In this document: positions 6,569 through 47,661 of the stretch, piece by piece | How positions within the stretch are numbered: the stretch's first letter is position 1 | How the letters are laid out: each line of letters starts with the position of its first letter | Source of the DNA: Escarpia spicata | Lineage: Eukaryota; Annelida; Polychaeta; Sabellida; Siboglinidae | Assembly (NCBI GenBank): GCA_963995525.1 | Contig: OZ023208.1 | Location: 22,398,120 to 22,462,119, forward strand | Direction of reading: 5' to 3' | Length of the DNA stretch: 64,000 nucleotides | The notes under the pieces: model-generated | Databases searched by the model: none | Told to the model about the DNA's origin: nothing | What the model saw: the letters and a program-made list of their open reading frames with translations, nothing else | Position numbers and translations under genes: made by a program

Positions 6569-6703
6569 ATTTCATTTGAGCGCCAAAACAAAAACAAAAA
6601 TTTTCCGGGTTGCCTCTCTGCAGCGAGAGTGTTCTGCCCTACAAACAAACCGCCACGTGCTTTTAATTCATGACGTCAAAACGCAACCCCGAATAGTCAC
6701 CAC

Positions 6704-11579: not shown

Positions 11580-14500
11580 TGGGTATTGAAACCAGGCAGC
11601 GTGGTGGGTGATGTCTTTGGAACTATGTCGTGTCAGTTGAAACCAGGTGGCTTGGTGGGTGATGTCTTTGGAACTATGTCGTGTCAGTTGAAACCAGGCG
11701 GCGTGGTGGGTGATGTCTTTGGAACTATGTCGTGTCAGTTTAAACCAGGCGGCATGGTGGGTGATGTCTTTGGAACTATGTCGTGTCAGTTGAAACCAGG
11801 CGGCGTGGTGGGTGGTGTCTTTGGAACTATGTCATATCAGTTGAAACCAGGCGGCGTGGTGGGTGATGTCTTTGGAACTATGTCGTGTCAGTTGAAACCA
11901 GGCGGCGTGGTGGGTGATGTCTTTGGAACTATGTCATATCAGTTGAAACCAGGCAGCGTGGTGGGTGATGTCTTTGGAACTATGTCGTGTCAGTTGAAAC
12001 CAGGCGGCGTGGTGGGTGGTGTCTTTGGAACTATGTCATATCAGTTGAAACCAGGCGGCGTGGTGGGTGATGTCTTTGGAACTATGTCGTGTCAGTTGAA
12101 ACCAGGCGGCGTGGTGGGTGATGTCTTTGGAACTATGTCGTGTCAGTTGAAACCAGGCGGCATGGTGGGTGATGTCTTTGGAACTATGTCATATCAGTTG
12201 AAACCAGGCGGCGTGGTGGGTGATGTCTTTGGAACTATGTCGTGTCAGTTGAAACCAGGCGGCATGGTGGGTGATGTCTTTGGAACTATGTCGTGTCAGT
12301 TGAAACCAGGCGGCGTGGTGGGTGATGTCTTTGGAACTATGTCGTGTCAGTTGAAACCAGGCGGCATGGTGGGTGATGTCTTTGGAACTATGTCATATCA
12401 GTTGAAACCAGGCGGCGTGGTGGGTGATGTCTTTGGAACTATGTTGTGTCAGTTGAAACCAGGCGGCATGGTGGGTGATGTCTTTGGAACTATGTCATGT
12501 CAGTTGAAACCAGGCGGCGTGGTGGGTGATGTCTTTGGAACTATGTCATGTCAGTTGAAACCAGGCGGCGTGGTGGGTGATGTCTTTGGAACTATGTCGT
12601 GTCAGTTGAAACCAGGTGGCGTGGTGGGTGATGTCTTTGGAACTATGTCATGTCAGTTGAAACCAGGTGGCTTGGTGGGTGATGTCTTTGGAACTATGTC
12701 GTGTCAGTTGAAACCAGGTGGCATGGTGGGTGATGTCTTTGGAACTATGTCATGTCAGTTGAAACCAGGCGGCGTGGTGGGTGATGTCTTTGGAACTATG
12801 GCTTGTCGGTTGAAACCAGGCGGCATGGTGGGTGATGTCTTTGGAACTATGTCATGTCAGTTGAAACCAGGCGGCATGGTGGGTGATGTCTTTGGAACTA
12901 TGTCGTGTCAGTTGAAACCAGGCGGCGTGGTGGGTGATGTCTTTGGAACTATGTCGTGTCAGTTGAAACCAGGCGGCGTGGTGGGTGATGTCTTTGGAAC
13001 TATGTCGTGTCAGTTGAAACCAGGCGGCGTGGTGGGTGATGTCTTTGGAACTATGTCATGTCAGTTGAAACCAGGCGGCATGGTGGGTGATGTCTTTGGA
13101 ACTATGTCATGTCAGTTGAAACCAGGTGGCTTGGTGGGTGATGTCTTTGGAACTATGTCGTGACAGTTGAAACCAGGCGGCGTGGTGGGTGATGTCTTTG
13201 GAACTATGTCGTGTCAGTTGAAACCAGGCGGCATGGTGGGTGATGTCTTTGGAACTGTGTCATGTCAGTTGAAATCAGACGGCATGGTGGGTGATGTCTT
13301 TGGAACTGTGTCATGTCAGTTGAAACCAGGCGGCATGGTGGGTGATGTCTTTAGAACTATGTTGTGTCAGTTGAAACCAGGTGGCATGGTGGGTGATGTC
13401 TTTGGAACTATGTCATGTCAGTTGAAACCAGGCAGCATGGTGGGTGATGTCTTTGGAACTATGTTATGTCAGTTGAAACCAGGCGGCATGGTGGGTGATG
13501 TCTTTGGAACTATGTCATGTCAGTTGAAACCAGACGGCATGGTGGGTGATGTCTTTGGAACTATGTTATGTCAGTTGAAACCAGGCGGTGTGGTGGGTGA
13601 TGTCTTTGGAACTATGTCGTGTCAGTTGAAACCAGGCGGCGTGGTGGGTGATGTCTTTGGAACTATGTCGTGTCAGTTGAAACCAGGCGGCATGGTGGGT
13701 GATGTCTTTGGAACTGTGTCATGTCAGTTGAAACCAGGCAGCATGGTGGGTGATGTCTTTGGAACTATGTTATGTCAGTTGAAACCAGGCGGCATGGTGG
13801 GTGATGTCTTTGGAACTGTGTCATGTCAGTTGAAACCAGGTGGCATGGTGGGTGATGTCTTTGGAACTATGTTGTGTCAGTTGAAACCAGGTGGCATGGT
13901 GGGTGATGTCTTTGGAACTATGTCATGTCAGTTGAAACCAGGCGGCATGGTGGGTGATGTCTTTGGAACTGTGTCATGTCAGTTGAAACCAGGTGGCATG
14001 GTGGGTGATGTCTTTGGAACTATGTTGTGTCAGTTGAAACCAGGTGGCATGGTGGGTGATGTCTTTGGAACTATGTCATGTCAGTTGAAACCAGATGGCA
14101 TGGTGGGTGATGTCTTTGGAACTGTGTCATGTCAGTTGAAACCAGGTGGCATGGTGGGTGATGTCTTTGGAACTATGTCGTGTCAGTTGAAACCAGGTGG
14201 CATGGTGGGTGATGTCTTTGGAACTATGTCATGTCAGTTGAAACCAGACGGCATGGTGGGTGATGTCTTTGGAACTATGTTATGTCAGTTGAAACCAGGC
14301 GGTGTGGTGGGTGATGTCTTTGGAACTATGTCGTGTCAGTTGAAACCAGGCGGCGTGGTGGGTGATGTCTTTGGAACTATGTCGTGTCAGTTGAAACCAG
14401 GCGGCATGGTGGGTGATGTCTTTGGAACTGTGTCATGTCAGTTGAAACCAGGCAGCATGGTGGGTGATGTCTTTGGAACTATGTTATGTCAGTTGAAACC

Positions 14501-15420
14501 AGGCGGCATGGTGGGTGATGTCTTTGGAACTGTGTCATGTCAGTTGAAACCAGGTGGCATGGTGGGTGATGTCTTTGGAACTATGTTGTGTCAGTTGAAA
14601 CCAGGTGGCATGGTGGGTGATGTCTTTGGAACTATGTCATGTCAGTTGAAACCAGGCAGCATGGTGGGTGATGTCTTTGGAACTATGTCATGTCAGTTGA
14701 AACCAGGCGGCATGGTGGGTGATGTCTTTGGAACTGTGTCATGTCAGTTGAAACCAGGTGGCATGGTGGGTGATGTCTTTGGAACTATGTTGTGTCAGTT
14801 GAAACCAGGTGGCATGGTGGGTGATGTCTTTGGAACTATGTCATGTCAGTTGAAACCAGATGGCATGGTGGGTGATGTCTTTGGAACTGTGTCATGTCAG
14901 TTGAAACCAGGTGGCATGGTGGGTGATGTCTTTGGAACTATGTTGTGTCAGTTGAAACCAGGTGGCATGGTGGGTGATGTCTTTGGAACTATGTCATGTC
15001 AGTTGAAACCAGGCAGCATGGTGGGTGATGTCTTTGGAACTATGTTATGTCAGTTGAAACCAGGCGGCATGGTGGGTGATGTCTTTGGAACTGTGTCATG
15101 TCAGTTGAAACCAGGTGGCATGGTGGGTGATGTCTTTGGAACTATGTTGTGTCAGTTGAAACCAGGTGGCATGGTGGGTGATGTCTTTGGAACTATGTCA
15201 TGTCAGTTGAAACCAGGCAGCATGGTGGGTGATGTCTTTGGAACTGTGTCATGTCAGTTGAAACCAGGTGGCATGGTGGGTGATGTCTTTGGAACTATGT
15301 TGTGTCAGTTGAAACCAGGTGGCATGGTGGGTGATGTCTTTGGAACTATGTCATGTCAGTTGAAACCAGGCGGCATGGTGGGTGATGTCTTCAGAACTAT
15401 GTCATGTCAGTTGAAACCAG
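11580..15420. repeat. 51-bp minisatellite, about 75 copies, with higher-order repeats
   Basis: The unit is 51 bp and contains GTGATGTCTTTGGAACTATG. The array spans 3.8 kb. One plus-strand frame encodes a 17-residue repeat (GVVGDVFGTMSCQLKPG and variants) and is open throughout except for one TGA at 13161-13163. The variable positions are almost all CpG-derived: ggCGtgg to ggCAtgg, gtCGtg to gtCAtg or gtTGtg, and ggCGgc to ggTGgc or ggCAgc. CG forms dominate left of about 13.2 kb and decayed forms dominate to the right. A 714-bp block (14 units) is repeated, for example from 13531 and again from 14245. No promoter or gene context is seen, so a coding role is unproven. Confidence 0.95.
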
Positions 15421-18944: not shown

Positions 18945-19126
18945 CGCCAGTCTATCGTCATATCCATATATGTAGATCTGTGGGATTGCGGCTCACGCGA
19001 GTGTGGGATTGCGGCTCACGCGAGTCACGTTACTGGTCTCGCTCTCCGGTATGTTTACGCGCACTGTTTGATGCGTTAATAAATGTTCTTTGCTGTTCGT
19101 TGATATACTAGTTGTCTATACTGGCG
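18945..19126 (+). repeat. 5' LTR
   Basis: It matches 23729-23910 at 181 of 182 positions. It contains a 23-bp sequence (TGTGGGATTGCGGCTCACGC...) duplicated in tandem at about 18980-19026 and an AATAAA at 19078-19083 that could serve as the polyadenylation signal. The termini form the inverted pair CGCCAG/CTGGCG. Confidence 0.92.
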
Positions 19127-19141
19127 TGGTGGCAGCGGTAC
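19127..19141 (+). other. candidate primer-binding site
   Basis: TGGTGGCAGCGGTAC begins at the first base after the 5' LTR. Starting with TGG it can pair with a tRNA 3' CCA end, as expected for LTR elements. The priming tRNA was not identified. Confidence 0.5.
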
Positions 19142-19392
19142 TGTTCGCAGTGTACCCTAAGAAACGCCTCACAAGTGACACTCGTAACTATAGCCAAACA
19201 AAAGGCACAACGAGACAGAGTACGTAAGTTACACTGGCAAAGCTTTGAACCTTTATAAACCGGAGCGTCAGTCACTGTCATGGCACAGAGAGCACCGAAG
19301 CAGTGGTCACTCTCAAAGCATCAAACTCTGACGTCGTTTGAGAACTGGCGACAAAATAATCCGAATGGAAAAAGAAGACGAATTCCACCCCG

Positions 19393-21771
19393 TTGCGGGG
19401 TCTAAGCGATGATGACGAAAACGTCCCTGCGGCTAGTCGGCGTACGGCCACACAAAAGGTCACGCACCTTGACCTAATGCTTGGCCAAATCGCCAATTTC
19501 TGTCCCGTTATATCGAGGAATACAATCGTAAAGAACTCTGTTTCTATAAAATCAATCTGGCAAGCAATACGCTTACATTTCGGCTTCCAATCCTCGGGCG
19601 CACACTTCCTCGACTTCGCCGAAATCAAGCTGGAGGCGGACGAAAGTCATGAAGATCTCTTTCAGAGATTGATGGCTTTCGTCGAGGACAACCTGTTGGC
19701 CGTGGGAGGTGGCATATCTCACCACCTGGAGTTACCGTCGTCAAACGAGGACATATCCCCGTCGTTGGAGAACATGATCGTCCTCCAATGGCTCAAACTA
19801 ATCCACCCTGAGCTACCCCGTCTAGTGAAACAACGATACGGGACAGAATTACGCAGCCGAACACTCGCAAGTCTGAAACCCGAGATATCGCAAGCATTAA
19901 CTTCTCTCCTTGATGAGCTAGCCGCTATCTCCGAAATAAAAGTCATGCGACAATCAACCACCAACCAACGGTCTGGCTCTTCTCAATCTCGTCGATATCA
20001 ACGTAGTGCAAGCAACCCAACCACTCGGCGAGCCAAACAGTGTCCACTGTGCAAGCAAGCGGGTCGTGCCAGCTACGAGCACTACCTGAGCGAGTGCAGG
20101 TTCCTACCTGAGAACGACCGGTTGTACCTATCCAAAGCGCGCAATATAATCGGAGTGGACTGCGACGACGGCTCGGATGATGAACAGTCAGCTGGAGACG
20201 GAGGTAACGAGCAATATCACACCGTACGCAGGGCTCACGCATACGTGCTGCACGCACCCTCGCCATCTACCACGGTTTGGCCGGGTGAGTTCGTAGAGCT
20301 CCAGTTGCCCACGGCCCTAGACGACCAGACTCTGGCAGTCGAGCCACGCAGCTCTCCACACAACGAAGGTTGGCCAAAGCCTGGAATCATTGAGGCAGTC
20401 GGCAACAAAATACGACTCGTCAACACGTTGCCCAGACCACTAAAGCTGTCTCGCCACGAACACTTTTGTCAGGTGCGTCACACTGTCGCATCACCGACCT
20501 GTGACACCGAATCTGAACCCGCTGTGAAGACTCGTAACATTGCCCACACCACTGACCTCTTCTCCGAAGCTATAGAGTTGGACTGCGACAAACAACTACC
20601 CGAGAGCATGCGAGGACAGTTCCGCAGTCTACATCAACAACACGACTCCGTTTTCAACCCGAGCATCGTGGGCTATAATGGACATGCGGGGCCTTTCACG
20701 GCAGTCGTCAACATGGGTCCGGTCCTGCCTCCTCAGCGCAAAGGAAGATGTCCTCAATACGCGCGCGAAAAACTGACCGAACTGCAGGAGAAGTTCGACG
20801 AGCTGGAGGCGGTTGGCGTGTTCCAACGACCGGAAGATGCCGGAATATCCGTCGAGTACCTGAACCCATCGTTCCTCGTTCGCAAGCCGAATGGAGGATC
20901 GAGGCTAGTTACTGCCTTCTCAGACGTTGGGAGGTACAGTAAACCACAACCGTCACTCATGCCAGATGTTGACTCTACCCTCCGCCAGATCGCGTGCTGG
21001 AAATACATAGTGGTGTCTGATCTAACCAGTGCTTTCTATCAGATCCCCCTAGCGAAGGAGTCAATGAAATTCTGTGGAGTGGCAACACCATTCCGTGGAG
21101 TACGTGTCTACACCAGATGCGCTATGGGGATGCCCGGTTCTGAGACCGCACTTGAAGAACTGATGTGCAGAGTACTAGGCGACCTTCTGCAAGACGGAGT
21201 TGTGACCAAACTGGCCGATGACTTGTACTGCGGAGGAAACTCACCCGAAGAACTACTAGACAACTGGGGTCGCGTTCTCGATGCCCTTGATCTATGCGAT
21301 CTACGTCTGTCGGCGAAGAAGACACGCGTTTTCCCCACATCTACTACCATTCTGGGTTGGGTTTGGTCTCAAGGCACAATACGCGCCAGCCCCCATCGTA
21401 TCACAACACTGTCGTCATGTGTACCACCACAGACCGTTCTCGGGCTGCGTTCCTTCGTTGGCGCTTTCAAAGTACTGGGACGTGTCATCCCGCAGAGTTC
21501 CAAGGTGCTTGCTCCTCTCGAATCACACATCGCGGGGAAGAAGTCTCAGGAGCCGATAAGCTGGTCCGAAAACCTCCACGAGGCGTTCTGTACAGCCCAG
21601 AAGGCCCTGTCAACTAACAGGTCAATCACCTTGCCAAGACCTGATGACCAATTGTGGATCGTCACCGACGGATCCGTCACACAGCGCGGTATCGGTGCCA
21701 CTCTGTACGTATCACGCAACGGTCAAACCCTCCTTGCAGGATTCTTCAGTGCTAAACTCAAAAAGCACTAG
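19393..21771 (+). pseudogene. gag (partial) - zinc knuckle - RT - RNase H part
   Basis: An open stretch of 792 codons. The gag body (LMLGQIANFCPVISRNT, LDFAEIKLEADESHEDL) covers about residues 20-200, and a CPLCKQ...HYLSEC zinc knuckle sits near residue 217. Reverse transcriptase runs from about 430 to 700, with VVSDLTSAFYQIPL near 540 and the catalytic LADD box at about 607 in place of the usual YxDD. The RNase H start IVTDGS lies near 756. The frame ends at a TAG that truncates RNase H. The first codon of the open stretch is not a real start; the natural start is probably the upstream ATG at 19280. Confidence 0.85.
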
Positions 21772-23607
21772 GTGACTTGGCTACCATGTGAGATCGAAGC
21801 GCTCGGCATTGCAGCCGCAGTTAAGCACTTCAGCCCGTACATAATCCAGTCCAAGTCTAAGCCGTGCCTTCTCACGGACAGCAAGCCATGCGTCCAGGCA
21901 ATGGACAAATTATGCCGCGGAGAATTCTCCTCCAGCCCACGCGTAACTTCGTTTTTGACGATCGTCTCGAGATACCAAGTCACTCTGCGCCATCTCTCGG
22001 GAGCCGCGAATGTGCCGTCCGACTTTGCCAGCCGAAACGCGCCGGAATGCATGGAGCCGCGTTGCCAGATATGCGCATTCATATCACGTATCGAAGAGTC
22101 CGTCGTCGGTAGCATCAGCGTCGAAGACATCGTATCCGGCTCTGCTCGCCTTCCATTCACGAGTAGATCGGCCTGGTTATCAACACAAGCAGAATGCCCA
22201 GACTTGCGCCGCGTCCGTGCCCACTTGAAACAAGGCACTCGCCCATCAAAGAAACTAACCAACATCAAAGACGTTAAGCGATACCTAACTACCTCAACAC
22301 TGGCTCGCGACGGCGTTGTTGTGGTCCGACAAGACGTGCCATTCGCACCATCCAGAGAACTAATTGTCGTACCTCGCCAGGTACTGGATGGTCTACTCAC
22401 TGCGATACATCTGAAGTTGAGTCATCCATCCAAAAATCAACTAAAAGTCGTAGTGCGTCGCAGTTTCTTCGCGCTAGATTTGGACAGCACAATCGAGCGC
22501 GTAACCGACATGTGCCATGTGTGTGCATCGCTGAAAAAGGTCCCTACAACGCTCACTGAGCAGACCTCAACTGACGCACCCGACGCCGTTGGGATCTCGT
22601 TTGCAGCCGACGTGATCAAACGCAATCGTCAACTAATCTTCGTCGTACGCGAAACCGTGACTAGCTACACGTCTACGTGTGTTATAGAGAACGAACGTCA
22701 CGACGCCTTGCGTGACAGTCTCGCCCGTCTTTGCATGGAACTTCGCCCCATTGACGGACCATCAGCTGTCGTTCGGGTGGATCCCGCACCCGGATTCATC
22801 GCTCTCGTAGATGACCCAACACTACAACGATTGGGCATCAGTATCGAAATCGGTCGAATCAAAAACGCCAACAAAAATCCGGTGGCAGAGAAGGCAGTGG
22901 CGGAAGTGGAGGACGAAATACCCCGACAAGAGCCAGGCGGCGACACTGTGTCCCCACTACTGTTAGCAGTCGCTACCTCGCGGCTCAACTCGCGAATCCG
23001 CAGCCGAGGCCTTTCGGCACGAGAAATGTGGTTCCAGAGAGATCAGTTCACTAATGCGCAGCTACATATCGCTGACCGCATTCTCATCACGGAACAACAA
23101 CAGTCGCGGGAACGGAACCACCCTCACAGTGAACTCGCGAAAGCCCCCCGTGGTAGAGAAGCTTCTACACACACAATCCACGTTGGTGACTTGGTATACA
23201 TAACATCCGATCGCAACAAGTCATCAGCGAGGGACAGATATTTAGTCACCTCCGTCGAAGACCGCTGGTGTTTCATTCGAAAATTCAGCGGCCACCAGCT
23301 TCGTGCATCATCATACAAGGTGAAACTCTCGGAGTGCTACTTAGTCCCCAATTCCAGACCAACTACCGTAGCCCCACCGCCCCATCACGACACTGGCAGT
23401 GATATCGAGTCCGATGAAGACGCCCCGGTGGTCTCGTTCGACGAGGCCCCTCAGACTCCGCTGACGATCGCTACTCCGCTGGAGGTACCCGTCCTACCAA
23501 CTCCAACTGACGAAGTCGTAGCTGAAATCGACACATCGGCCGACACTCCACGACCTGTCCGCAGACGTGTCAAGCCCAAGTACTTACAAGACTATGTCAC
23601 TTCATAA
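21772..23607 (+). pseudogene. RNase H remainder and integrase
   Basis: This is the same frame as the preceding part, immediately after the TAG. It carries the rest of RNase H (LLTDSKPCVQAMD, LRHLSGAANVPSDFASR) and then integrase. The HHCC zinc-binding site is formed by HLKLSH near residue 212 and CHVC near 248. The DDE core is likely FAADVIK (about 279), VRVDPAPGF (about 337) and the acidic cluster in NPVAEKAVAEVEDE (about 370-378). The C-terminus is basic and proline-rich (TPRPVRRRVKPKYLQDYV), with no obvious chromodomain. The region has no ATG at its start, so it would not be translated separately in an obvious way. Confidence 0.85.
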
Positions 23608-23713
23608 ACAGTTTGTGTGTTAATTGTTGCATCTTTACATTGTGTTTAATTGTTTATCACAAAATTAATAGTCAGTTGACTTACTATAATTTGCTTAGAA
23701 TAGAAGAGGACTT

Positions 23714-23725
23714 AAAGGAAAGTGG
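23714..23725 (+). other. candidate polypurine tract
   Basis: AAAGGAAAGTGG lies three bases before the 3' LTR, in the position of the plus-strand primer. The intervening TCG is unusual but small gaps occur. Confidence 0.5.
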
Positions 23726-23728
23726 TCG

Positions 23729-23910
23729 CGCCAGTCTATCGTCATATCCATATATGTAGATCTGTGGGATTGCGGCTCACGCGAGTGTGGGATTGCGGCT
23801 CACGCGAGTCACGTTACTGGTCTCGCTCTCCGGCATGTTTACGCGCACTGTTTGATGCGTTAATAAATGTTCTTTGCTGTTCGTTGATATACTAGTTGTC
23901 TATACTGGCG
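23729..23910 (+). repeat. 3' LTR
   Basis: Same length and sequence as the 5' LTR except one base (C instead of T in CTCCGGcATG). It is followed directly by TATGAC, of which TAT matches the three bases before the 5' LTR. Confidence 0.92.
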
Positions 23911-26542: not shown

Positions 26543-26546
26543 TTAA
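26543..26546. repeat. TTAA target-site duplication, left
   Basis: TTAA precedes the left inverted end and is repeated after the right end at 35111-35114. Removing one TTAA and everything between restores the non-LTR element's reading frame exactly across the junction, which proves the insertion boundaries. Confidence 0.93.
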
Positions 26547-26605
26547 AGGAAAACAAAAGGCAACGTTTTGGTGTTAAGCATCTAAAAGAGTTAATACAAA
26601 CTAAC
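26547..26605 (+). repeat. left terminal inverted repeat of TTAA element
   Basis: It begins AGGAAAACAAAAGGCAACG and matches the reverse complement of 35052-35110 at 52 of 59 positions, with weaker similarity slightly further inward. Confidence 0.9.
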
Positions 26606-26907
26606 AATTTCCAACTACAATCAAATTTTTAACGTCAGTGGTTTACCAGGAAAACATTTTTGAACACGCAACTACCGAATTTCTATGGACTACGCCATTG
26701 TTAGAAGAAAGTGACGTCACACTGTCGTAACTTTTCTGCGTACTATTTGTTCCCAACTCCGTTAGGTGGCGCTATGGTACGTTTACCAATTAAACCATGT
26801 GCGCATGCGCTGTGACTGTGTAAACAAGATGGTTCCAATTCTTCGGAAGACAACGAAAACCAAATCGATTTCGAAGCAGTTGGTTACCGGTTTGAGCCAC
26901 AAAAACA

Positions 26908-27108
26908 ATGGAAGATACGGCAGAAGTGGGTGCCGGTGGGCACGAACAGGGAGGCCCACAGGCAGTCGAAATGTCGAGGCGCATACCATGCCGAGATGAA
27001 ATTGATTGGTGTCGGTGTGGAAAATGCCGCAACGTCGACGATCTCCTTGTTCAGGAACAAGACAAGAACTGAATATGTCTGCTGCCAGGAGGCGGTTGCT
27101 ACTCGAAG
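26908..27108 (+). pseudogene. ballast-domain gene exon 1 (WCxCGxC ... CC)
   Basis: From an ATG at 26908, 361 bp inside the left inverted end, the frame encodes an acidic leader and then RRIPCRDEIDWCRCGKC before a TGA at 27070. The neighbouring frame continues with EYVCCQEAVATRR up to a CGAAG/GTAATT donor. Together these form the first zinc-ligand cluster (W-C-x-C-G-x-C ... C-C-x-E) of the cytoplasmic ballast domain known from the P2X7 receptor C-terminus. There a cysteine-rich cage binds two zinc ions and a guanine nucleotide. At least one indel breaks the frame. The receptor's ion-channel domain is absent. Confidence 0.8.
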
Positions 27109-27799
27109 GTAATTATTAATATGTTTAGTTTATTGTTTAAATAACCGATGAGCCAAAGTTCTGGGCTGCGTATGAACAGCGAGAGATGATCGCTCGTGCC
27201 GGGACACGTCACTTGTCTTACATTTCGGATTGGTTGACGTTTAACTTAGTTAGATCTCACTCTCAGTGCCACTGGACTCAGTGTTTGAACTTTGACATGT
27301 CCATTTTCGAATACCACCCATGGCTGTACCTTCACTTTTTAAAAGAAATGTAGTTGAATGGTTCCATGATTCATGTGAACCAAAACTGTACAGCCTACAG
27401 GTCAGAGCTATGATAGAATATGAACAATATGTGGCAGTACTACTTTTTAAACACATGGCAGGTAGATAGATTATTTTTAACTTTATGAATACTGCAATTT
27501 TTCTGCCCAAAGTTTACATTGGCTCTTATGAATAAAATATACCTTGAACATGTTTCAGCCAGAGCCCCCATTTGTTTTGGTGACAAAGAAAATGACCACC
27601 GTTTTGTGCAAATATTGACACATTTCAAAACGGCCTTCCTTAATCTGCATGATATTTCTATGGACCCAGGTATAATATTGGGATGAATACAGTTAGAGGA
27701 TCGTGATGCATTCTTTGTGAAATTTGTTCAGAATAATAATCCATGTTTGCTTAACATTTGTGTAAAACTAATATTTAAAAGCTTAATTCTTTGTTACAG
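27109..27799 (+). other. intron 1 of ballast-domain gene
   Basis: Starts GTAATT and ends TTTGTTACAG. No other feature seen. The phase at its two ends does not match in the current sequence, consistent with decay. Confidence 0.5.
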
Positions 27800-27899
27800 G
27801 TGGATTGCTGTGCATTACAAAGACCAGGGGATTTAGAATTCTTTGTTTGGAGCAGGTGATGCTGCAGAATGGGAATTATGCCGTCCAACAAACAAGTAC
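27800..27899 (+). pseudogene. ballast-domain gene exon 2
   Basis: It follows TTTGTTACAG. The frame reads GGLLCITKTRGFRILCLEQV and on to MLQNGNYAVQQTS. The C-I-T ... F ... C-L ... V-L spacing is the second cysteine pair and helix of the P2X7 ballast fold. A donor at AC/GTATAT (27899) gives the phase needed by the next exon; an alternative GTACGT donor four bases upstream does not. The link to exon 1 requires a phase change, so another indel or a shifted splice site is implied. Confidence 0.75.
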
Positions 27900-28925
27900 G
27901 TATATATGTGCATGCATTGTTACAAGACCAGTGAAATGTGTTGTTAAATATTTATTGAAATGTATTAATAACGAACACAATACAACATCGTAGTAGCACT
28001 AGCAATACAAATATATATAGATAATTTTATCAGCAATCTCATGCCGGATGCCCAATTTATTAACAATCTTCCAGGGAAATTACTTAGTGGACTTACCATA
28101 CGTCATCTACCATCCACATGCTAAGCAAATTCACATAATTGAACTGACTACCATTTGAACCTAACATCAAGAAAGATCATGTATTCAAAACTAACAAGTA
28201 TGTCGCACTAATCCATGATGTAAACAATAACGGAATAAAATCAGAATTAACATGCATTGAAATAGGTTGCAGAGGCTATGTATCTGAACCCAACAAATCT
28301 AAGACAACCTCCTTAAAAACTCTTGGAATAAAACCACCAACAAAACAACTAATTAAATCATATGCTTGTCTAAACTAGCCCTGCTAACGCCATTCACCCT
28401 TTCTAAATGTAAAGACGAACCACACTGGTTTGACCCAAGAATAATTAAAATATGATGACCATCACCCTAATATGACAATAATTGCAAAATAAAATTCACC
28501 TCAACAGCAAGTAATCCTACATAAATGTGTTCATTTTCAATATGACTTACCTTAACCGGTGGTCATTATTTACCTAAGCCTGCTACAATATACTACTATA
28601 CATAGCTATTTACTGTATTCACACATGTACTTGGGTTATCGTTTCACACTTTATTGTATTCTACTGTAAGAATAAAGTGATACTCTCTCACTACAGAACA
28701 AATTATAATGGTTCCACTTAAGTTATCATAACGTATAGATACAATGTTTGTTGCACCTTCGTAATTTGTTCTGTAGTGCAAAATTATCAATATTTGCCTT
28801 ATTCCAGAAGAACACGTGTTTAATGGTAAACAATTTATATAAAGGAATGGTGTCGTTATATAACCGATTTTATTTTTTCATTTATTTACAATGTCAGATG
28901 TTTATTTGAGCCTAATTTATTTCAG
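27900..28925 (+). other. intron 2 of ballast-domain gene
   Basis: AT-rich intron that contains a small 90-bp element with perfect 17-bp inverted ends (28689-28778). No exon seen. Confidence 0.5.
28689..28778. repeat. 90-bp mini foldback with 17-bp perfect inverted arms
   Basis: CACTACAGAACAAATTA at 28689-28705 is exactly inverted at 28762-28778, with a 56-base spacer. It could be a very small MITE or a hairpin inside the ballast-gene intron. No clear target duplication is visible. Confidence 0.6.
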
Positions 28926-29094
28926 GTCTCTCAGGTGGGCTGCATACAGACAGTTTACCTGGTGGATCCATGGCAAGCTGGGACGGAGGGTACAGAGAGT
29001 TCTACCAGCATGCGCCAGCCATGGAATAAGATCAGGGTTCCCTGCCCCCGATGGGGGACAACACGAGGGATACCACGCTGGACTTGAAAACTAA
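28926..29094 (+). pseudogene. ballast-domain gene exon 3, C-terminal
   Basis: The acceptor TTATTTCAG is followed by a frame reading LRWAAYRQFTWWIHGKLGRR and VQRVLPACASHGIRSGFP, ending with TAA at 29092-29094. R-x-A-A-Y-R-Q-F-x-x-W, L-G-R-R-V and the P-A-C-A/V motif are hallmarks of the C-terminal half of the P2X7 ballast domain. This is the best preserved of the three exons. An alternative acceptor eight bases further in (TCTCAG/GTGGGC) keeps the same frame. The stop codon lies at the point where the minus-strand transposase frame also ends. Confidence 0.85.
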
Positions 29095-29449
29095 ACTAGA
29101 CAATGTACATGTGACCTATGAAGGTGTAGGTTGGTGGTGGCAGTGTTTGCTGTTTCTTTACAAATTGACTGACTCTTGCTGCCAGCAGATCCTCCTTCTC
29201 TGGTTTTGGGACATCTGCCCCAGTGACTGTGATCGCATGCAGTGTGATATTTCTTTATAAACACATCTGTCACTCGATCGGTGAGCATTTGTAGGTGGGT
29301 ACGTGGGTTCACCTGCTGTGGTCTGTTATGCAGCACCCATTGCTTGCGTCTTTTGGACCACATGACACCAGTCTCAACATGTTTGTCTGGGCTGGGACGT
29401 GGTCGGTAGTTCCACGCCAGAGCAGACAGCATCAATCTAGCTTTCATTC
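29091..29449 (-). pseudogene. Kolobok-like transposase, last exon
   Basis: On the minus strand a CACTGTAG acceptor (29450-29451) precedes MKARLMLSALAWNYRPRPS and KRRKQWVLHN, then PRTHLQMLTDRV. This matches the conserved tail of THAP-type transposases and their relatives, which often read 'ARxxLAAxxxN.N..R' and later 'K.W'. In the second half the better coding frame switches (GADVPKPEKEDLLAARVSQF), so there is a frameshift. The end overlaps the last four bases of the plus-strand ballast gene, giving a tail-to-tail arrangement. The assignment rests on recalled family pattern, not a search. Confidence 0.6.
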
Positions 29450-30448
29450 CTACAGTGAAGAATAGTGCATGCAGTATTCTAATAAAAGGTCTGCAAACAA
29501 CCGGTGTAACACACCAGTCTATATGTTGTTAGTAATCAGCTGTTATTTACCTTGACTGTAGCATTCAGTTCACTTTTAAGTGCTTTTCCTGTGTAAAGTG
29601 TTGGTTGTTTTTAGTAACAATACAATGGCCAATCATGGTAACCATACTGGTACATTAGTAAACTGATACTGATCCTTACAAATAAGGCATTCCATCATCA
29701 CATTCCTTCACATAATTTATTATAACTTGTTTTTTCTTCTTAATTTCTGTATCTACTGTATATACAGTGACTGTATTTTGATATCATGTTTTGATTTGAT
29801 ATTTCTTTAATAAAATTGGTGATGATGACACAAGTGCTCTTATTTATTTAATTACAGACAATTGCATTCTGGAATGTAATTATTACATGGAGACATAATT
29901 TATTACACTCAAGTAACTGTACTCATAAATGTACACAGCAACTGATTACAAGGAATAGGTAGGGTGATACAGAATGGACACTATCCATCTGTGGAGTATT
30001 CGCCCCCTCACATCTGAGTAACTAAACTACTGAAAAGTTGGTCATCAGGAACTTTGACTATGTAACATTTTGGGTCCCATTCATAAGTCGGTGGTCCACA
30101 TATTAACACATAATGTAAACAGCATTTACATTATCACTTTTTTTGGAAGTCTGAATAAACACATTTACTGATAAGGTAGTAGTCATGCTGGCTGGTACTT
30201 TTGAGTAGCCATCCTGAAAAAAACGAGTTGGATGCCTATGAAATGCAGTAATTTCAAAAACTTATTATAATGTTAGTTATGCATAGGAGCATAATGTATT
30301 TGGGATTCAAGTCGGTGACTGGAATTCACCTTACACTACTTGGGTCGTGGTCCCTACTCATCATCTACTGATTGCAAATCTAAAGGTTACTTGTTGCTTT
30401 GGACATGCCTCAGGTATAAAATGAATACATATCAAGTTTGGTACTTAC
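29095..30448. other. interior of TTAA element, introns and decayed sequence
   Basis: Apart from the transposase exon ending at 29449, I see no coding exon here on either strand. A middle part of the transposase (catalytic region) that should lie between the exons at 30449 and 29449 was not found, so it may have been deleted. Confidence 0.4.
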
Positions 30449-30598
30449 TTCAGCAACTGTGCGTCACCGTTGCATGTTGCACAACACCACCACAGATGGT
30501 TTGATACATTCTGTATCCAATGAAGGAGGTCCTCGCATCCCTTGCCTCGGACCATCGTAGTAAACTTGCGGTTGATGCCTTTCCCCATGTGCTGTTAC
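30449..30598 (-). pseudogene. Kolobok-like transposase, internal exon
   Basis: On the minus strand the exon lies between an AAAAACAG acceptor and a CTGAA/GTAAGT donor. It reads MGKGINRKFTTMVRGKGCED, then LLHWIQNVSNHLWWCCATCN and GDAQLL. The pattern W-I-x-x-[IV]-x-N-H-x-[WY]-W-C-x..-G-D is typical of the transposase core region in Kolobok-like THAP elements found across invertebrates, and both splice signals are strong. It is the clearest support for a transposase rather than a lone THAP domain. Confidence 0.7.
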
Positions 30599-31118
30599 CT
30601 GTTTTTACTGTATTTTTTTCAAAAAAAAACACTTTCACCTGGGTTGTATCCCCTTAACTAAAATTGAGTAACATTATGGAATTTTACTAAATGCAAATGA
30701 AGCCATTTTAAACGTTTCAAAATAGCGTATATAGTGATATTTTTCGTCACATAAACAGTAGTCACACATAATTATATACGAAGTCCAATTATATAACATC
30801 ATGATATAAATAATAGGCCAAACATTTCGATATATATGACAATGTCTAATGCAATATTATTGAATGCAGAACGTATTTTTGTTCATTTAACACAAAATAC
30901 AGTAAGTTTTGCAATGTTATTATAAACGACAATCATTCCAGCCCATGTTAATCCGTTACTGTAAATTGTAATATCGCTCACGCGACTTGATTGCCGTTAA
31001 CTTTTGCTATTCGGCTATCTTCTAAAGAGTCTATGTGGTGCAATATAGTACATTCTGGTACTGTTCTGGCTTGGCTCCAGCATATCTTGCATCTCAAATG
31101 TCAACAGATTTTAATTGG

Positions 31119-31126
31119 ATACCAAG
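31119..31126. repeat. hAT target-site duplication, left (ATACCAAG)
   Basis: ATACCAAG directly before the left hAT end pairs with ATACTAAG directly after the right end (34409-34416): 7 of 8 match. An 8-bp duplication is diagnostic of hAT insertion. Confidence 0.85.
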
Positions 31127-31392
31127 CATACATGCCAACCTTCAGTGATCCACACCTGTAAGACTATGGGCAAAAATCCATAAGACAGCCATAAGCAAGC
31201 TGCAAGTGTAGCGACAGGACAATACAGCTGATATCTAATATACCGGCATTAACAACAACACCTGTTCACACAACTCTCTTTATTGACCTTCACTTGTCAG
31301 ACAGGTGCTCGAGCTAATCCTCATAGCACGCATGCTTTGCGTCGCGGAGCATCGCCGGCGACACCTTTAACTGATGACAGCAGCTGTCAAAG

Positions 31393-31890
31393 TTAAGAGA
31401 AAGGTCCGCCTCGACAGCGGTCCATGACGGGCGTCGTAGCTGCCGGCGCCAAGCACCGTTTCACGATCTGGGTTGTTTTCGTCCTCTTACACTTGAATCG
31501 CTTAGCGATCTCACTATCTGGGAACATTTGGCGGGCCAGGTCGGTAAAATGGTCTGCCAAAAGTGCGGGCAGGTTGTGCTCGGCCACAAAGAACGAAAAC
31601 AATACCTCCGCTTTTGTGGTCGAGTCGGTGGAGTCCGTAGACTTGGGCTTGAAAAAGCTGGTTACTTGCGAACACTGCAATTGTCGTTCGTGCGTCTTCG
31701 ATTTAACGTGCTCGCGCACATCGTACACGCCGGAGGCGGCCACTTTAATGTCTCGACAACAGACAGTACACCATGCGTAGTTGCTCCCTGACTTACTTTC
31801 ACTAATGATGCCTTTAAACAAGCCATTCCAACTGGATTGATACGTCCCGGCATACTGCTTCTGTTTTCGCTTCCTCGCCGGAATCTCCAT
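31393..31890 (-). pseudogene. hAT transposase N-terminal fragment with BED/TTF-like zinc finger
   Basis: An intact 165-codon frame with ATG at 31890. A zinc-finger stretch at about residues 38-71 (YAWCTVCCRDIKVAASGVYD, then HVKSKTHER) shows C-x2-C ... H-x5-H. It is followed by KAEVLFSFFVAEHNLPALLA and DLARQMFPDSEIAKRFKCKR, then TKTTQIV, as in the region just after the finger of hAT transposases. The DDE catalytic core and C-terminal dimerisation region are missing; the frame ends in unrelated residues (MDRCRGGPFS). It could still make a small DNA-binding protein, but no evidence of use is visible. Confidence 0.75.
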
Positions 31891-31984
31891 CTTCTTCGAA
31901 ATTTACATGCGGTACGAATTTTCGCTAGATGGTAGGGTGGTCGGACCAAAATGTTGTTTCGTAAAAAAAAATGTTTTCTCATTT

Positions 31985-32480
31985 TTCCCTGATAGTAGTC
32001 ACTATAAGAAGTACAACGGTAGTTGTTTCATGTATCTAAGTGAAATATTAAAAAAACTACAGCTTGGTAAAGTTTCAAATTTCATGACATTTTCTGACGG
32101 TTTTCTGACAGATCTAATTTTGCTTATAAATCACAAGAATTGTTTTTAAATTATTTTCCCCTGATAACAGTCACTAATAGAAGTGCAATGGTGCTTGTTT
32201 CATGTACATCAATGAAATATTAAAGAAACTGCAGTTTTGTAAAGTTTCTAATTTCATGTTTTTTCCGACAATTTTCCGTTAGATTTGATTTTGCATATAA
32301 ATCACAAGGACAATTTGTTTAAAATATTTTCCCACATAGTGGTCACTATAAGAAGTACAATGCTATTCATTTCATGTAGCTAAATACAACAGAAAACTAC
32401 AGTTTTGCAAAGTTCTAAATTTCATGAATTTTTTCAAACGTTTTCTGACGGATCTGATTGTGTACATAAATCACAAGAAA
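31985..32480. repeat. roughly 172-bp tandem repeat, about 3 copies, inside hAT
   Basis: Three diverged copies each start near TTCCC.GATAGTAGTCACTATA and AGAAGT.CAA (about 31987, 32157, 32330). Each includes CTACAG.TT.G.AAAGTT, TTTCATG and TTTTCTGACGG.T...AT, ending in ATAAATCACAAGAA. Confidence 0.75.
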
Positions 32481-34395
32481 ATTACTTTTTATCATCTTGA
32501 GTCTTTTGCCATCTATAAAGAAGGCCAATACAAAATTACATGTAACAATAAATATACACATAAAAAAGTAAATACATACACACACACGCACACACATCAT
32601 GTATTACAATAGCATTAAATCATGAACATGACAGCAACTGAGCAAAGATGCTCAATGTGGTTCTATCTTCATAACATTAAAACAACTGTATGAACTTACA
32701 ACCACACGAAAGGATTTGTTGATTGTGATTTAGAACCACAAACTGACAATACTAGTATCCCATTACACAACACTTGTTTTATTGGGCAAAGCCAATGACT
32801 GCGATGATTGACAAGCCAATTAACTCGTAATACACTGTGGCACAAAATGCCAATAATAGTCCCCCAATACACAACACTTGTTACATTGGGCAAATCCCAT
32901 AACTACTATGATTGCCAAACCAATTAACTTGTAATATACTGTGGTTAAACCCATTGTTATCAACAATAGGGCATACTATTATACTTATTTGTCTATGATT
33001 ATATGTAATTAATAGATACCATAAATCATAATGTTTACTTAATGTATATTATTTTATGTATACTATATAGTGACAAATACAAAGATATAATCTTATTCTG
33101 TAATCTTAATATATATAAAAACTGGTACATACATATCAAATACAAAAACAGTAGGCCCTACATCAAAATAATTTATAACGATACATTTTTTTATAAACAA
33201 ATAATAATACAATAAATGAATTGAAACATAAATTATCATAAATTGTAATAATGTAACCAACACACAATATTATGTATGTGCTAAATAGCTCAACAGTTGT
33301 ATAATTAAACTAAAGTAATACCAATAAATAAACTAATAATATATTAATATAAACATCAATCAGTTACATTAAACATGGCAGCAATGAATTACACAGGTGT
33401 AGTCATATGTCTTGGCAGTATTAATCAAAGTCACCCGCTGTCGATCACATCGCTATCTGAGTCACGAGTGCATTGTATACCATGACGCACTGCGTGCATA
33501 GAGGGAAGAAGGCAAAATGGCGATATCATTTTAGACGGGGGTTCCATAAACGGACGTTGTGCATGTTTGTGCTATCAATTGGAAAGCCATCACTGTAATC
33601 ACGTTATCGTTGACACAATTCTTTACCCTTCGGCATATGCTTTCCGCTGAAACCAACTAATTAAATACTCACAAAACATCGTCAAACATAGGCCATTTTA
33701 AATCCATAATTACTATAATTTGTTATCGACGGATTACAATAATATTTTCAGATTCATTTTCCTCTGAATTTCCTCTTTCTTCATCACATTTCAATATGGA
33801 TGTACTCATTAACATAATCTCGCAAATCAGTTTGATAGGTGGGGTCTGTCAACGTGATCCAAGATGGCCGTACGCGTAAATCAAGAAAACCAAAATACGA
33901 CACTGAGAGTAAAAAAATCATTACCGCTAATAAACACTGCCAAAAAATATTTTTTCAGCGCAGATACACACATTTACATTATTACAACATAAAAAAATTC
34001 ACAAACCAACAGGTAGAATGCATGATAATAAACTATGGCCACTAAACTGGGACCCCTGTCTCCCATGTTGTCAGAAGGGGAGGTAAATTGGTCTGACCTC
34101 CCTATAGATGGTTTGCCGCGCATGCTAAAAAGGTATCTGCACTGCAATCTGGGATATATTCTTCGCATCTCGCGAGACTTCGATTAGCGCACTGAACTCC
34201 ACTAAAATGATCTGGACAAATGGTCGTTTCTCGATTCAGGAAGGATAATTTAGTTTGATGATAACGAGTCGTATAACCAAATAATAATAAAACAACTAAG
34301 TACATGAAAACGCGTTACCCGTAAGGAATTTGTCCTACGCCCGTAAGACCGTCAAATCTTAGAAAATCCGTAAGACTTACGGGTGATCCGTAAGA
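32481..34395. other. hAT interior filler, no gene
   Basis: Very AT-rich. It includes a two-copy direct repeat of about 108 bp (ACACAACACTTGTT..ATTGGGCAAA at 32764 and 32872). No coding exon is seen. Confidence 0.5.
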
Positions 34396-34431
34396 GTTGG
34401 CATGTATGATACTAAGTAACTCGGTACTAAC

Positions 34432-34783
34432 CTTCTTGCGATCGATTTCGTGGCGGCGGCGCGTTTGACCGAAAATATGCGTCGCTTCGACGGCCGAGGT
34501 CCGTGACTAAATATCGTAGGCACTGCACCTGGCTTCAAACATCGACGTCGGCGACGTTTTGTCGGATCTTGTGTCATTAACTGACGATATAGATTTCCTC
34601 CGAAGCACGTTTTTTCAAAATGATCTGAACACAGTGCGTTGTATTTCGAAGGCTTCCAACCAGCCCGTCCACAGTTGTGAATCCACTATTTCACTTCTGC
34701 TTCGTTTCAAAGGGAAACAAAAAAGACGGCTCCTTATCCTTCGCTGTACTATTGTTACAACCGTATGTAGAGCAGTGTGGCAT
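34432..34783 (-). pseudogene. THAP-domain exon of TTAA-element transposase
   Basis: On the minus strand an ATG at 34783, about 330 bp inside the right inverted end, opens MPHCSTYGCNNSTAKDKEPS and FLFPFETK before a stop. After a frame change, W...YNALCSDHFEKTCFG continues into LKPGAVPTIFSHG. C-x4-C, C-x2-H (CSDHF) and the AVPTIF motif are the defining THAP features, used by such transposases to bind their own ends. The exon closes with a good donor, CGCAAGAAG/GTTAGT, at 34432. One or more indels disrupt it. Confidence 0.85.
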
Positions 34784-35051
34784 ATTGCAAGTCACGTTTT
34801 CACTGTAAGCTCAACTTAATATAACGAACCGCATCCCATGAACATGAACCAACTACGCGAACTACACAAGACAGTGTGTCGTACACAGCAAAACTAATGC
34901 TGCTCGTTGATTGGTTGCTTTCGGCCAAATGAACGCGTCATCAGTAAGATGGCAGTCTACATGTTATCGCAGATTTCGTTAGAATCTTACACTTTAAGAC
35001 AACATTCCGAGTAAACCACTGAACTGAAAATTTTGATTGTAGATGCAAATG

Positions 35052-35110
35052 GTTAGTTTGTGCTAAATCTTTTAGGTGCTAAACACCACAACGTTCCCTT
35101 TTGTTTTCCT
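35052..35110 (-). repeat. right terminal inverted repeat of TTAA element
   Basis: It reads inward as AGGAAAACAAAAGGGAACG on the minus strand and pairs with 26547-26605 at 52 of 59 positions. It is followed by TTAA at 35111-35114. Confidence 0.9.
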
Positions 35111-35114
35111 TTAA
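35111..35114. repeat. TTAA target-site duplication, right
   Basis: Second copy of the TTAA target; the non-LTR coding sequence resumes at the following base. Confidence 0.93.
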
Positions 35115-35845
35115 GAAGACGAACATCATGGGCCAGGATGTTCGCAATACTCCATCCATCAACATCAATGACACACCTTAGAAGTTGTCCAAGTCTTCAC
35201 CTACCTGGGCTCAACTATCACCAGCAACCTTTCCATTGATGCTGAGATCAACAAACGTATAGGTAAAGCTTATTCTGCAATGTCCAGGCTGACCACGAGG
35301 GTATGGGAAAACGGCGCATTCACACTGAACACCAGGGTTCAAGTGTACACAGATTGGGTCGTCAGCATCCTGTTGTACGGCAGTGAGACATGGACAGCAT
35401 ACACAAGGCATAAGCTTCGTCTCAACACATTCCACTTACGTTGCCTCAGGCGCATTCTTGGAGTGAAATGGCAGGATCGCATCCCAAATGCAGAAGTGGT
35501 CAAGCAGGCAAACCCTCCCAGCATGTATGCTCTCATCAGCGAACGTCGCTTGCGATGGCTCGGCCACGTATGTCGCATGGAGGATGGTAGAATCCCTAAA
35601 GACATCCTCTGTAGTGAGCTTGAAATAGGTCCAGACCCACCACCCGCCCGTTGCTTCGGTTCAAGGATGTGTGTCGACGCGATATGAAGGCATGCAGCAT
35701 CGACACAACCTCATGGGAGACAGCTGCTATAGATCGCAGCATCAGTGCGTGAGGGGTGAAAACCAGCGAGGAAAAGCGGAACGCAACATGGATGAAGAAG
35801 AGATGACAACGACGTGATCGTGAGAACGGCGCACCAGTTTTAAAA
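35115..35845 (+). pseudogene. non-LTR retrotransposon, 3' piece (post-RT region), split
   Basis: This continues the element interrupted at 26543. It starts with KTNIMGQDV, the residues expected directly after the RT palm, then FTYLGSTITSNLSIDAEINK, LLYGSETWTAYTRHKLRLN, TFHLRCLRRILGVKWQDRIP and RRLRWLGHVCRMEDGRIPKD. A later part (DVCRRDMKACSIDTTSWETA) lies in another frame, ending near 35845. These are the thumb and C-terminal segments common to this group of animal non-LTR elements. No poly-A or simple-repeat tail is visible at the end. Confidence 0.85.
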
Positions 35846-44013: not shown

Positions 44014-44215
44014 ATTGAACTTTGCGTTACGGTCACCTCGGTAATACAGCCACTTCGCAATTAAGGTCACCCTAGGGTAGTCCCAAATCATTCCCATGCA
44101 CAGTAAAGTATAGGAAATTAATCTCTCTAGTACAGTCACCTTGTTATTCAGGTCACTTTGGTAAATCCTAAGGCTAACCTTAATAATGAGGTCATGTTGT
44201 ATTGAGATCTCTACC
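44014..44215 (+). repeat. dispersed repeat copy (AGTAAAGTATAGGAA family)
   Basis: It contains CGCAATTAAGGTCACCCTAG, CAGTAAAGTATAGGAAATTA and GTTATTCAGGTCAC, matching 17468-17690 and, inverted, two copies near 59.2-59.6 kb. Its last 30-odd bases (AATGAGGTCATGTTGTATTG...) grade directly into the first unit of the 54-bp array, suggesting that the array arose from this repeat's end. Confidence 0.65.
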
Positions 44216-46905
44216 TCACTGACCTTGTTTGTTTGTAAAGTAAGGTCCTGCTGTATTCAGTCCTCTACTTCACTGACCTTGTTTGTTTGTAAAGTGAGGT
44301 CCTGCTGTATTCAGTCCTCTACTTCACTGACCTTGTTAGTTTGTAAAGTGAGGTCCTGCTGTATTAAGTCCTCTACCTCACTGACCTTGTTTGTTTGTAA
44401 AGTGAGGTCCTGCTGTATTCAGTCCTCTACCTCACTGACCTTGTTTGTTTGTAAAGTGAGGTCCTGCTGTATTCAGTCCTACTTCACTGACCTTGTTAGT
44501 TTGTAAAGTGAGGTCCTGCTGTATTCAGTCCTCTACTTCACTAACCTTGTTAGTTTGTAAAGTGAGGTCCTGCTGTATTAAGTCCTCTACCTCACTGACC
44601 TTGTTTGTTTGTAAAGTGAGGTCCTGCTGTATTCAGTCCTCTACCTCACTGACCTTGTTTGTTTGTAAAGTGAGGTCCTGCTGTATTCAGTCCTCTACTT
44701 CACTGACCTTGTTAGTTTGTAAAGTGAGGTCCTGCTGTATTCAGTCCTCTACTTCACCGACCTTGTTAGTTTGTAAAGTGAGGTCCTGCTGTATTCAGTC
44801 CTCTACTTCACCGACCTTGTTAGTTTGTAAAGTGAAGTCCTGCTGTATTCAGTCCTCTACCTCACATACCTAGTTTGTTTGTAAAGTGAGGTCCTGCTGT
44901 ATTCAGTCCTCTACTTCACTGACCTTGTTTGTTTGTAAAGTGAAGTCCTGCTGTATTCAGTCATCTACCTCACTGACCTTGTTTGTTTGTAAAGTGAAGT
45001 CCTGCTGTATTCAGTCATCTACCTCACTGACTTTCTTTGTTTGTAAAGTGAGGTCCTGCTGTATTCAGTCCTACCTCACTGACCTTGTTTGTTTGTAAAG
45101 TGAGGTCCTGCTGTATTCAGTCCTCTACTTCACTAACCTTGTTAGTTTGTAAAGTGAGGTCCTGCTGTATTAAGTCCTCTACCTCACTGACCTTGTTTGT
45201 TTGTAAAGTGAGGTCCTGCTGTATTCAGTCCTCTACCTCACTGACCTTGTTTGTTTGTAAAGTGAGGTCCTGCTGTATTCAGTCCTCTACTTCACTGACC
45301 TTGTTAGTTTGTAAAGTGAGGTCCTGCTGTATTCAGTCCTCTACTTCACCGACCTTGTTAGTTTGTAAAGTGAGGTCCTGCTGTATTCAGTCCTCTACTT
45401 CACTGACCTTGTTAGTTTGTAAAGTGAAGTCCTGCTGTATTCAGTCCTCTACCTCACATACCTAGTTTGTTTGTAAAGTGAGGTCCTGCTGTATTCAGTC
45501 CTCTACTTCACTGACCTTGTTTGTTTGTAAAGTGAAGTCCTGCTGTATTCAGTCATCTACCTCACTGACCTTGTTTGTTTGTAAAGTGAAGTCCTGCTGT
45601 ATTCAGTCATCTACCTCACTGACCTTCTTTGTTTGTAAAGTGAGGTCCTGCTGTATTCAGTCCTACCTCACTGACCTTGTTTGTTTGTAAAGTGAGGTCC
45701 TGCTGTATTCAGTCCTCTACCTCACTGACCTTGTTTGTTTGTAAAGTGAAGTCCTGCTGTATTCAGTCCTCTACCTCACTGACCTTGTTTGTTTGTAAAG
45801 TGAAGTCCTGCTGTATTCAGTCATCTACCTCACTGACCTTGTTTGTTTGTAAAGTGAAGTCCTGCTGTATTCAGTCATCTACCTCACTGACCTTGTTTGT
45901 TTGTAAAGTGAGGTCCTGCTGTATTCAGTCCTCTACCTCACTGACCTTGTTTGTAAAGTGAGGTCCTGCTATATTTAGTCCTCTACCTCACTGACCTTGT
46001 TTGTTTGTCAAGTGAAGTCCTGTTGTATTCAGTCCTCTACCTCACTGACCTTGTTTGTAAAGTGAGGTCCTGCTATATTTAGTCCTCTACCTCACTGACC
46101 TTGTTTGTTTGTAAAGTGAAGTCCTGCTGTATTCAGTCATCTACCTCACTGACCTTGTTTGTTTGTAAAGTGAGGTCCTGCTGTATTCAGTCCTCTACCT
46201 CACTGACCTTGTTTGTTTGTAAAGTGAAGTCCTGCTGTATTCAGTCCTCTACCTCACTGACCTTGTTTGTTTGTAAAGTGAAGTCCTGCTGTATTCAGTC
46301 ATCTACCTCACTGACCTTGTTTGTTTGTAAAGTGAAGTCCTGCTGTATTCAGTCATCTACCTCACTGACCTTGTTTGTTTGTAAAGTGAGGTCCTGCTGT
46401 ATTCAGTCCTCTACCTCACTGACCTTGTTTGTAAAGTGAGGTCCTGCTATATTTAGTCCTCTACCTCACTGACCTTGTTTGTTTGTCAAGTGAAGTCCTG
46501 TTGTATTCAGTCCTCTACCTCACTGACCTTGTTTGTAAAGTGAGGTCCTGCTATATTTAGTCCTCTACCTCACTGACCTTGTTTGTAAAGTGAAGTCCTG
46601 CTGTATTCAGTCATCTACCTCACTGACCTTGTTTGTTTGTAAAGTGAGGTCCTGCTGTATTCAGTCCTCTACCTCACTGACCTTGTTTGTAAAGTGAGGT
46701 CCTGCTATATTTAGTCCTCTACCTCACTGACCTTGTTTGTTTGTCAAGTGAAGTCCTGTTGTATTCAGTCCTCTACCTCACTGACCTTGTTTGTAAAGTG
46801 AGGTCCTGCTATATTTAGTCCTCTACCTCACTGACCTTGTTTGTTTGTCAAGTGAAGTCCTGTTGTATTCAGTCATCTATCTCACTGACCTTGTTTGTTT
46901 GTCAA
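44216..46905. repeat. 54-bp minisatellite, about 50 copies, in ELOVL intron 5
   Basis: The unit contains AAAGTGAGGTCCTGCTGTAT and TCAGTCCTCTACCTCACTGA. Shortened units (CTCT lost, or one TTTG lost) mark internal landmarks. A block of about 592 bp recurs nearly unchanged (44493 onward and 45085 onward), and a shorter set of TTTAGTCC and GTCAAGTG variant units recurs from about 45960 on. The 18-residue open frame across the units ends whenever a shortened unit shifts the frame, so coding is not supported. Confidence 0.95.
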
Positions 46906-47661
46906 GTGTTGACTGTTTGGTTACTAGTTTACAGAATGATGAACTAGTATCAAAATGTTGTATACATTTACTATCAGTCATTGGAAGTTATTCTGTTGGA
47001 AATTAGAAATCAGGAAATATCAAACATCGGTGTTATGAGATGGTGCCTAAATACTGTATTTATTCTGTTAGGCATAAAATACTCTTTAAAATATTTGAAT
47101 CACTAAAATATGTCAAGTGTGGTTATGGTTTCTAATAAGCATACACAATTTCTTTGGTTCTGAAAACGTCTTCACTGTTTCATGCCAGCTGGCAATACAT
47201 TCACTTAATTTTCATAACATAACACCACCTGTTTGAGTAATTAAAGTCCAACTTATACGACGGGCGATTGTGGAGCATGATGGATCATCTGGTTGCAGGT
47301 CTAGGCTAGTGGAGGCAAAGAGCTTCCTGTCCACGTGCCATCTGGGGTTTTTGCGTTGGATAGCAATCCTGTTATATTATTAGGGACCATCTCAAAATAT
47401 TGATGTCCGATATCAGAATAAATTTCTTTCATCTGGCCTCAGCACCCCACCCCTCCCCTCAGACGAATGTATGATGATACCAATATATTAACAGTTTTGG
47501 TCGGAAGCATAAAATATCGTTGTCCGACGCCAGACAAAATTTGGGCATTCCCTCCCCAAACAAAGTAATTTTGTCTTCGGACACCGACGTTCTGAGATGA
47601 TCCCATAAACATCTTTTATTGCTGACTTGCTGTGTTCACTTGTCTGTGTATAATTCTTCAG
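46906..47661 (+). other. ELOVL intron 5, right part, no gene seen
   Basis: Unique-looking intron sequence up to the TTCTTCAG acceptor. Confidence 0.45.

Follow-up and report, generated by a model that had tools for sequence, protein, structure and literature searches.

The DNA element described here lies at positions 26547-35110 of a 64,000-nucleotide stretch of the genome of the annelid Escarpia spicata (contig OZ023208.1), which is referred to below as the window. It measures 8564 bp between two TTAA copies. Within its inverted ends are present three plus-strand exons of a ballast gene (KolX), minus-strand remnants of a transposase with a THAP domain, and a nested insertion (Table 1). The TTAA duplications at 26543-26546 and 35111-35114 and the sharp limits of the element agree with the initial annotation. 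Inverted ends are also present as described, though they are longer than the roughly 60 bp first given: they extend over 106 bp at 84.9% when the TTAA is left out, and over 110 nt at 85% when it is counted in. It had further been claimed that excision restores the interrupted frame exactly. Upon removal of the element with one TTAA, the flanking frame is indeed rejoined at the junction (...LTINIK/KTNIMGQ...), but it is open for only about 21 codons more and then meets a stop; the target of the insertion was, therefore, already decayed. A reverse transcriptase match (PF00078, 1.5e-20) was obtained for the left flank, and the right-flank ORF at 35172-35684 gave no Pfam family match.

Table 1. 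Features of the element in the window, with a second ballast family of the same genome in the last row
Feature	Position	Strand	Remarks
Left TTAA target-site duplication	26543..26546	.	Read from sequence
Left inverted end	26547..26652	+	106 bp, 84.9% vs right end; first bases 5'-AGG
KolX exon 1 (model)	26908..27108	+	ATG; WCRCGKC; 5-bp ACAAG duplication shifts frame, then TGA
KolX exon 2	27800..27899	+	CITKTRGF..CLEQ
KolX exon 3 with stop	28926..29094	+	WAAYRQFTWW..LPACA..GLEN
Transposase C-terminal fragment ORF	29091..29528	-	Conserved part 29462-29244; tblastn with P0004, P0005, P0006
Transposase middle fragment (NHLWWCCATCNGDAQLLK)	30448..30591	-	tblastn with P0004-P0006
Left 8-bp duplication ATACCAAG of nested element	31119..31126	.	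Empty site printed in 5 copies
Nested later insertion, hAT-like	31127..34408	.	3.28 kb; 8-bp duplication
Right 8-bp duplication ATACTAAG of nested element	34409..34416	.	Junction comparison
THAP domain, approximate limits	34430..34783	-	Two halves, different frames
Right inverted end	35005..35110	-	Pairs with left inverted end
Right TTAA target-site duplication	35111..35114	.	Read from sequence
Second TTAA-ended family, single-exon ballast ORF	L029 1961-8768; L031 2670-9101		Loci as fetched

The gene model of KolX is predicted from sequence only, with exon 1 ending at G/GTAATT and exon 2 at AAGTAC/GTATAT. When joined across the frameshift, the three exons match the Pfam family PF20478 (P2RX7_C) at 5.8e-13 over positions 76-189 of 192, as well as chains of P2X7 structures, the best of which is 6u9v at 4.5e-6. 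When about 5.8 billion proteins were searched with the ballast sequence, three of seven candidates passed 1e-3, namely the unnamed P0001 and P0003 and a protein of Capitella teleta (P0002), which is annotated with the same P2RX7_C domain. Exon 1 agrees with P0003 at 85% over 54 columns. These profile and protein matches confirm the earlier identification of P2X7-type ballast exons inside the element. Exon 1 had, however, been read as running continuously from WCRCGKC to CCQE. Both stretches are present, but they lie in different reading frames, and a stop comes before CCQE in the frame of WCRCGKC. For this copy, an intact zinc-binding ballast domain is not supported. Its gene is frameshifted, and the CC pair is never read in frame in the open copies of the family; the catalytic core of the transposase is also lacking. 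At its far end, KolX converges with the transposase ORF of the minus strand, and the stops of the two (29092-29094, + and 29091-29093, -) overlap.

Among the transposases used as queries, the reference P0005 has 601 aa. The motifs of P0004-P0006 are tentatively read here as Kolobok, in the light of PMC9587614; the Pfam label of P0005 is PF20700, ‘Mutator-like transposase’. With P0005, tblastn recovers no more than parts of two stretches (residues 354-403 and 493-565), in the window as in 20 other copies of the element, and the catalytic core or its residues were found in none of these 21 copies. As for the THAP domain, its second half matches PF05485 at 7.2e-11 and both halves joined reach 1.2e-16, while the halves are out of frame with each other in the window and in the four translated copies L009, L011, L024 and L027. 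With the core missing and the THAP domain split, the family looks non-autonomous, as judged from sequence. Transposases of the P0005 type are present elsewhere in the genome, with 96 matches from the 73 scored of 1669 candidates. The best of them, L033, was considered as the autonomous partner and rejected, as nothing in it resembles the window element at the DNA level; an autonomous partner did not turn up in this one locus examined of the 96 matches.

The nested insertion appears hAT-like by its 8-bp duplication. It is absent from all 20 other copies, and of the six junctions printed, five are a clean empty site, and in the sixth, that of L011, the position is taken by another insertion. The ORF of the nested insertion at 31396-31902 (-) had no Pfam family match and presumably resembles hAT. 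Tandem repeats of 172 bp and 104 bp are present in its interior.

Several other features were observed elsewhere in the window. An ORF at 4590-6638 (-), which ends in a THAP domain (8.1e-12), contains a 38-bp minisatellite of 48 copies (4741-6567). The unit of this minisatellite encodes the THAP start MPSGCCAVGCT, which suggests that the repeat array expanded out of the THAP exon. At 18979-23809 is an LTR-type retroelement with two long ORFs, a reverse transcriptase match (4.3e-10) and weak matches to RNase H and an integrase zinc finger; the same 23-bp tandem repeat occurs at both of its flanks. Two large minisatellites, at 11586-15420 (51-bp x75) and 44187-46908 (54-bp x51), have units that are multiples of three, and the frames are left open.

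In the 1.06-Gb host genome, a search with the left end gave 40 scored matches at 98-100%, including the window, among 2018 first-look candidates, and a search with exon 3 gave the same number at 98-100%, again including the window, among 437; as only the best candidates were scored and the first look was loose, neither figure of 40 is a copy number. The excess of end candidates over exon-3 candidates leaves room for copies that do not carry the ballast exons. For comparison, 20 of the 39 left-end places listed besides the window were taken, picked by best left-end match. The sample is thus biased to the best left ends, and exon-less copies may exist elsewhere. All 20 are flanked by TTAA at both sides and are 5116-6624 bp long, the first 12 bases being identical in 19 of them and the last 12 likewise in 19. 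The termini are AG...CT in the window element and in every copy compared. Substitution divergence from the window copy ranges from 0.6 to 4.2%, where the figure for L019 also covers a portion of another copy with greater divergence. L017 and L018, which are 14.4 kb apart, are probably duplicates. All three exon regions align in each of the 20, several of which have internal deletions or insertions, and a part of exon 1 is missing in L026. The expectation that other copies would carry the ballast exons between TTAA-flanked ends was borne out in this best-left-end sample, and the exon-less copies that would have spoken against it did not appear there.

Under one gene model, the KolX frame is open in 10 of the 20 copies and broken in the remaining 10 as well as in the window. 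The window shares with L016 the 5-bp duplication after which the shifted frame runs into a stop, and therefore a broken gene spread or got copied. In nine of the ten open copies, the DNA for EYVCCQE is read in another frame; in the tenth, L026, the N-terminus is altered and the EYVCCQE stretch is absent. The broken copies L010 and L012 have CCQE in frame and terminate early after it. Two of the open copies, L020 and L019, match PF20478 at 3.3e-12 and 3.9e-13. The zinc cysteines WCxCx2C, CC, C and PSC do not occur together in one frame in the window or in any of the ten open copies, CC being out of frame. The CC zinc ligands were probably lost through two old frameshifts that compensated each other; an intact ancestor was not seen among the copies.

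The changes in KolX number 44 nonsynonymous to 12 synonymous within subfamilies, where they were counted per copy and shared ones repeatedly, and 6 to 2 between two subfamilies, the neutral expectation being 72% nonsynonymous. This count was made on 19 sequences, L026 and L028 having been dropped, and it gave no sign of purifying selection on KolX in a test of little power. The changes in the ballast gene of the family look neutral, and the frame that is open in half of the copies could reflect some constraint. We infer that KolX of the window family is decaying and does not serve the element. It might also be proposed that KolX is a working derived variant, in which two compensating frameshifts lost the CC ligands while the frame was kept, and that its protein still aids the element in trans now that the family has lost its transposase; this is considered quite unlikely.

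The window family is not the only one in this genome with a ballast gene. A genome search with P2RX7_C gave 150 matches from the 150 scored of 1007 candidates, the best at 5.6e-32, and four of the best five places (L029-L032) were fetched. These loci have a common repeat whose ends read TTAA-AGGGG, except that the left end of L031 has AGCGG; both ends are present in L029 and L031, and one end in L030 and L032. The ballast ORF of L029 has all seven motif cysteines and the complete zinc-cysteine set, and it matches P2X7 chains at 6.9e-22 and PF20478 at 8e-35. Compared at the DNA level, the four loci did not match the window element, and tblastn with P0004-P0006 gave no transposase in them; a THAP-like ORF was recognised by eye in L030. 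This second family may be Kolobok as well, an assignment that rests on the TTAA, the RR ends and KolX. The P2X gene of the host was located at C10:23976169-23987208, and fragments were seen on C428 and at C10:27260240. Along C10, the closest of the scored ballast matches is separated from this gene by about 263 kb and is on the opposite strand. A P2X7-type fusion was not found among the scored matches, and the element ORFs scanned gave no P2X match.

The ordinary look of the introns and splice sites, together with the frame that is open in half of the other copies, would suit exons of a host gene that was merely surrounded or partly captured by a transposon. The exons, however, lie within the inverted ends and travel with them in all 20 fetched copies, on which ground this explanation was rejected. 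It is also opposed by the second TTAA-ended family with a ballast gene, by the lack of ballast matches, among those scored (150 of 1007 candidates), over some 260 kb around the P2X gene on C10, and by the description of KolX as the partner gene of Kol0 in PMC9587614. The host-gene explanation is, therefore, regarded as very improbable.

The reading that we prefer, with a probability of roughly 0.9, is that 26547-35110 is a non-autonomous copy of the Kolobok superfamily, most likely Kol0, with the three-exon KolX on the plus strand and THAP/DDE transposase remnants on the minus strand. A Kolobok-type element would have been inserted at a TTAA in a decayed non-LTR retrotransposon, the transposase for its family presumably being provided in trans from another source, and the hAT-like element would have entered the Kolobok copy afterwards. 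The superfamily is indicated by the TTAA target-site duplication and the 5'-RR / YY-3' termini of the window element and the 20 other copies, and Kol0 by the encoded KolX with its ballast domain. The placement in Kol0 would also accord with the anatomy of transposase plus KolX, TTAA and 5'-RR ends given in PMC9587614. TTAA duplications are equally a property of piggyBac transposons, and a few piggyBac families with a KolX-like gene have been reported (Kojima and Bao, PMC9587614). Against such a membership stand the ends 5'-AG...CT-3', which follow the 5'-RR...YY-3' rule stated there for Kolobok termini, and, inside the element, a THAP domain together with pieces similar to P0004-P0006, of which P0005 carries PF20700. 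Moreover, none of the element ORFs scanned gave a piggyBac Pfam match. Membership in piggyBac was rejected because of the terminal bases and the fragments of THAP and transposase, and its probability is taken to be only slight.

Stand-alone ballast (ZCD) proteins were described by Rump et al. in 2020 (PMC7016195), in the text of which the string ‘transpos’ does not occur. Kojima and Bao later linked such proteins to Kolobok. According to their 2022 paper (PMC9587614), Kol0 Kolobok transposons encode KolX, the second protein of this lineage, which has the cytoplasmic ballast fold, and P2X7 arose when a P2X4-like gene fused with KolX. The proposal that the ballast domain travels as transposon cargo holds in so far as the exons lie within the ends in all 20 copies, and an element of this type could donate the domain to a host gene; KolX is, however, not exotic cargo but the second protein of Kol0. 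The link between transposon and ballast domain is thus already published, and the present addition is a further family that appears non-autonomous and whose KolX has decayed. In one further genome, the observations are in line with the published view of the P2X7 ballast domain as a transposon-encoded protein, and they place a ballast gene in no fewer than two TTAA-ended families of the same animal. Alone, they change no accepted view; they provide material for asking about the role of KolX and the time at which P2X7 acquired it.

In comparison with known systems, the element is like Kol0 Kolobok in its TTAA duplication, its 5'-RR...YY-3' ends, its KolX with a ballast domain and the transposase fragments in the same element. 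It differs in that the transposase core is lacking in 21 copies of the window family and CC is out of frame, and the window copy carries a nested hAT-like element. Its ballast domain is homologous to the cytoplasmic ballast of P2X7, as seen from PF20478 and the P2X7 PDB chains; unlike the receptor, it has no channel part and is unfused to P2X. It thereby resembles the stand-alone ZCD proteins of PMC7016195, which likewise have the zinc-cysteine domain outside a P2X architecture.
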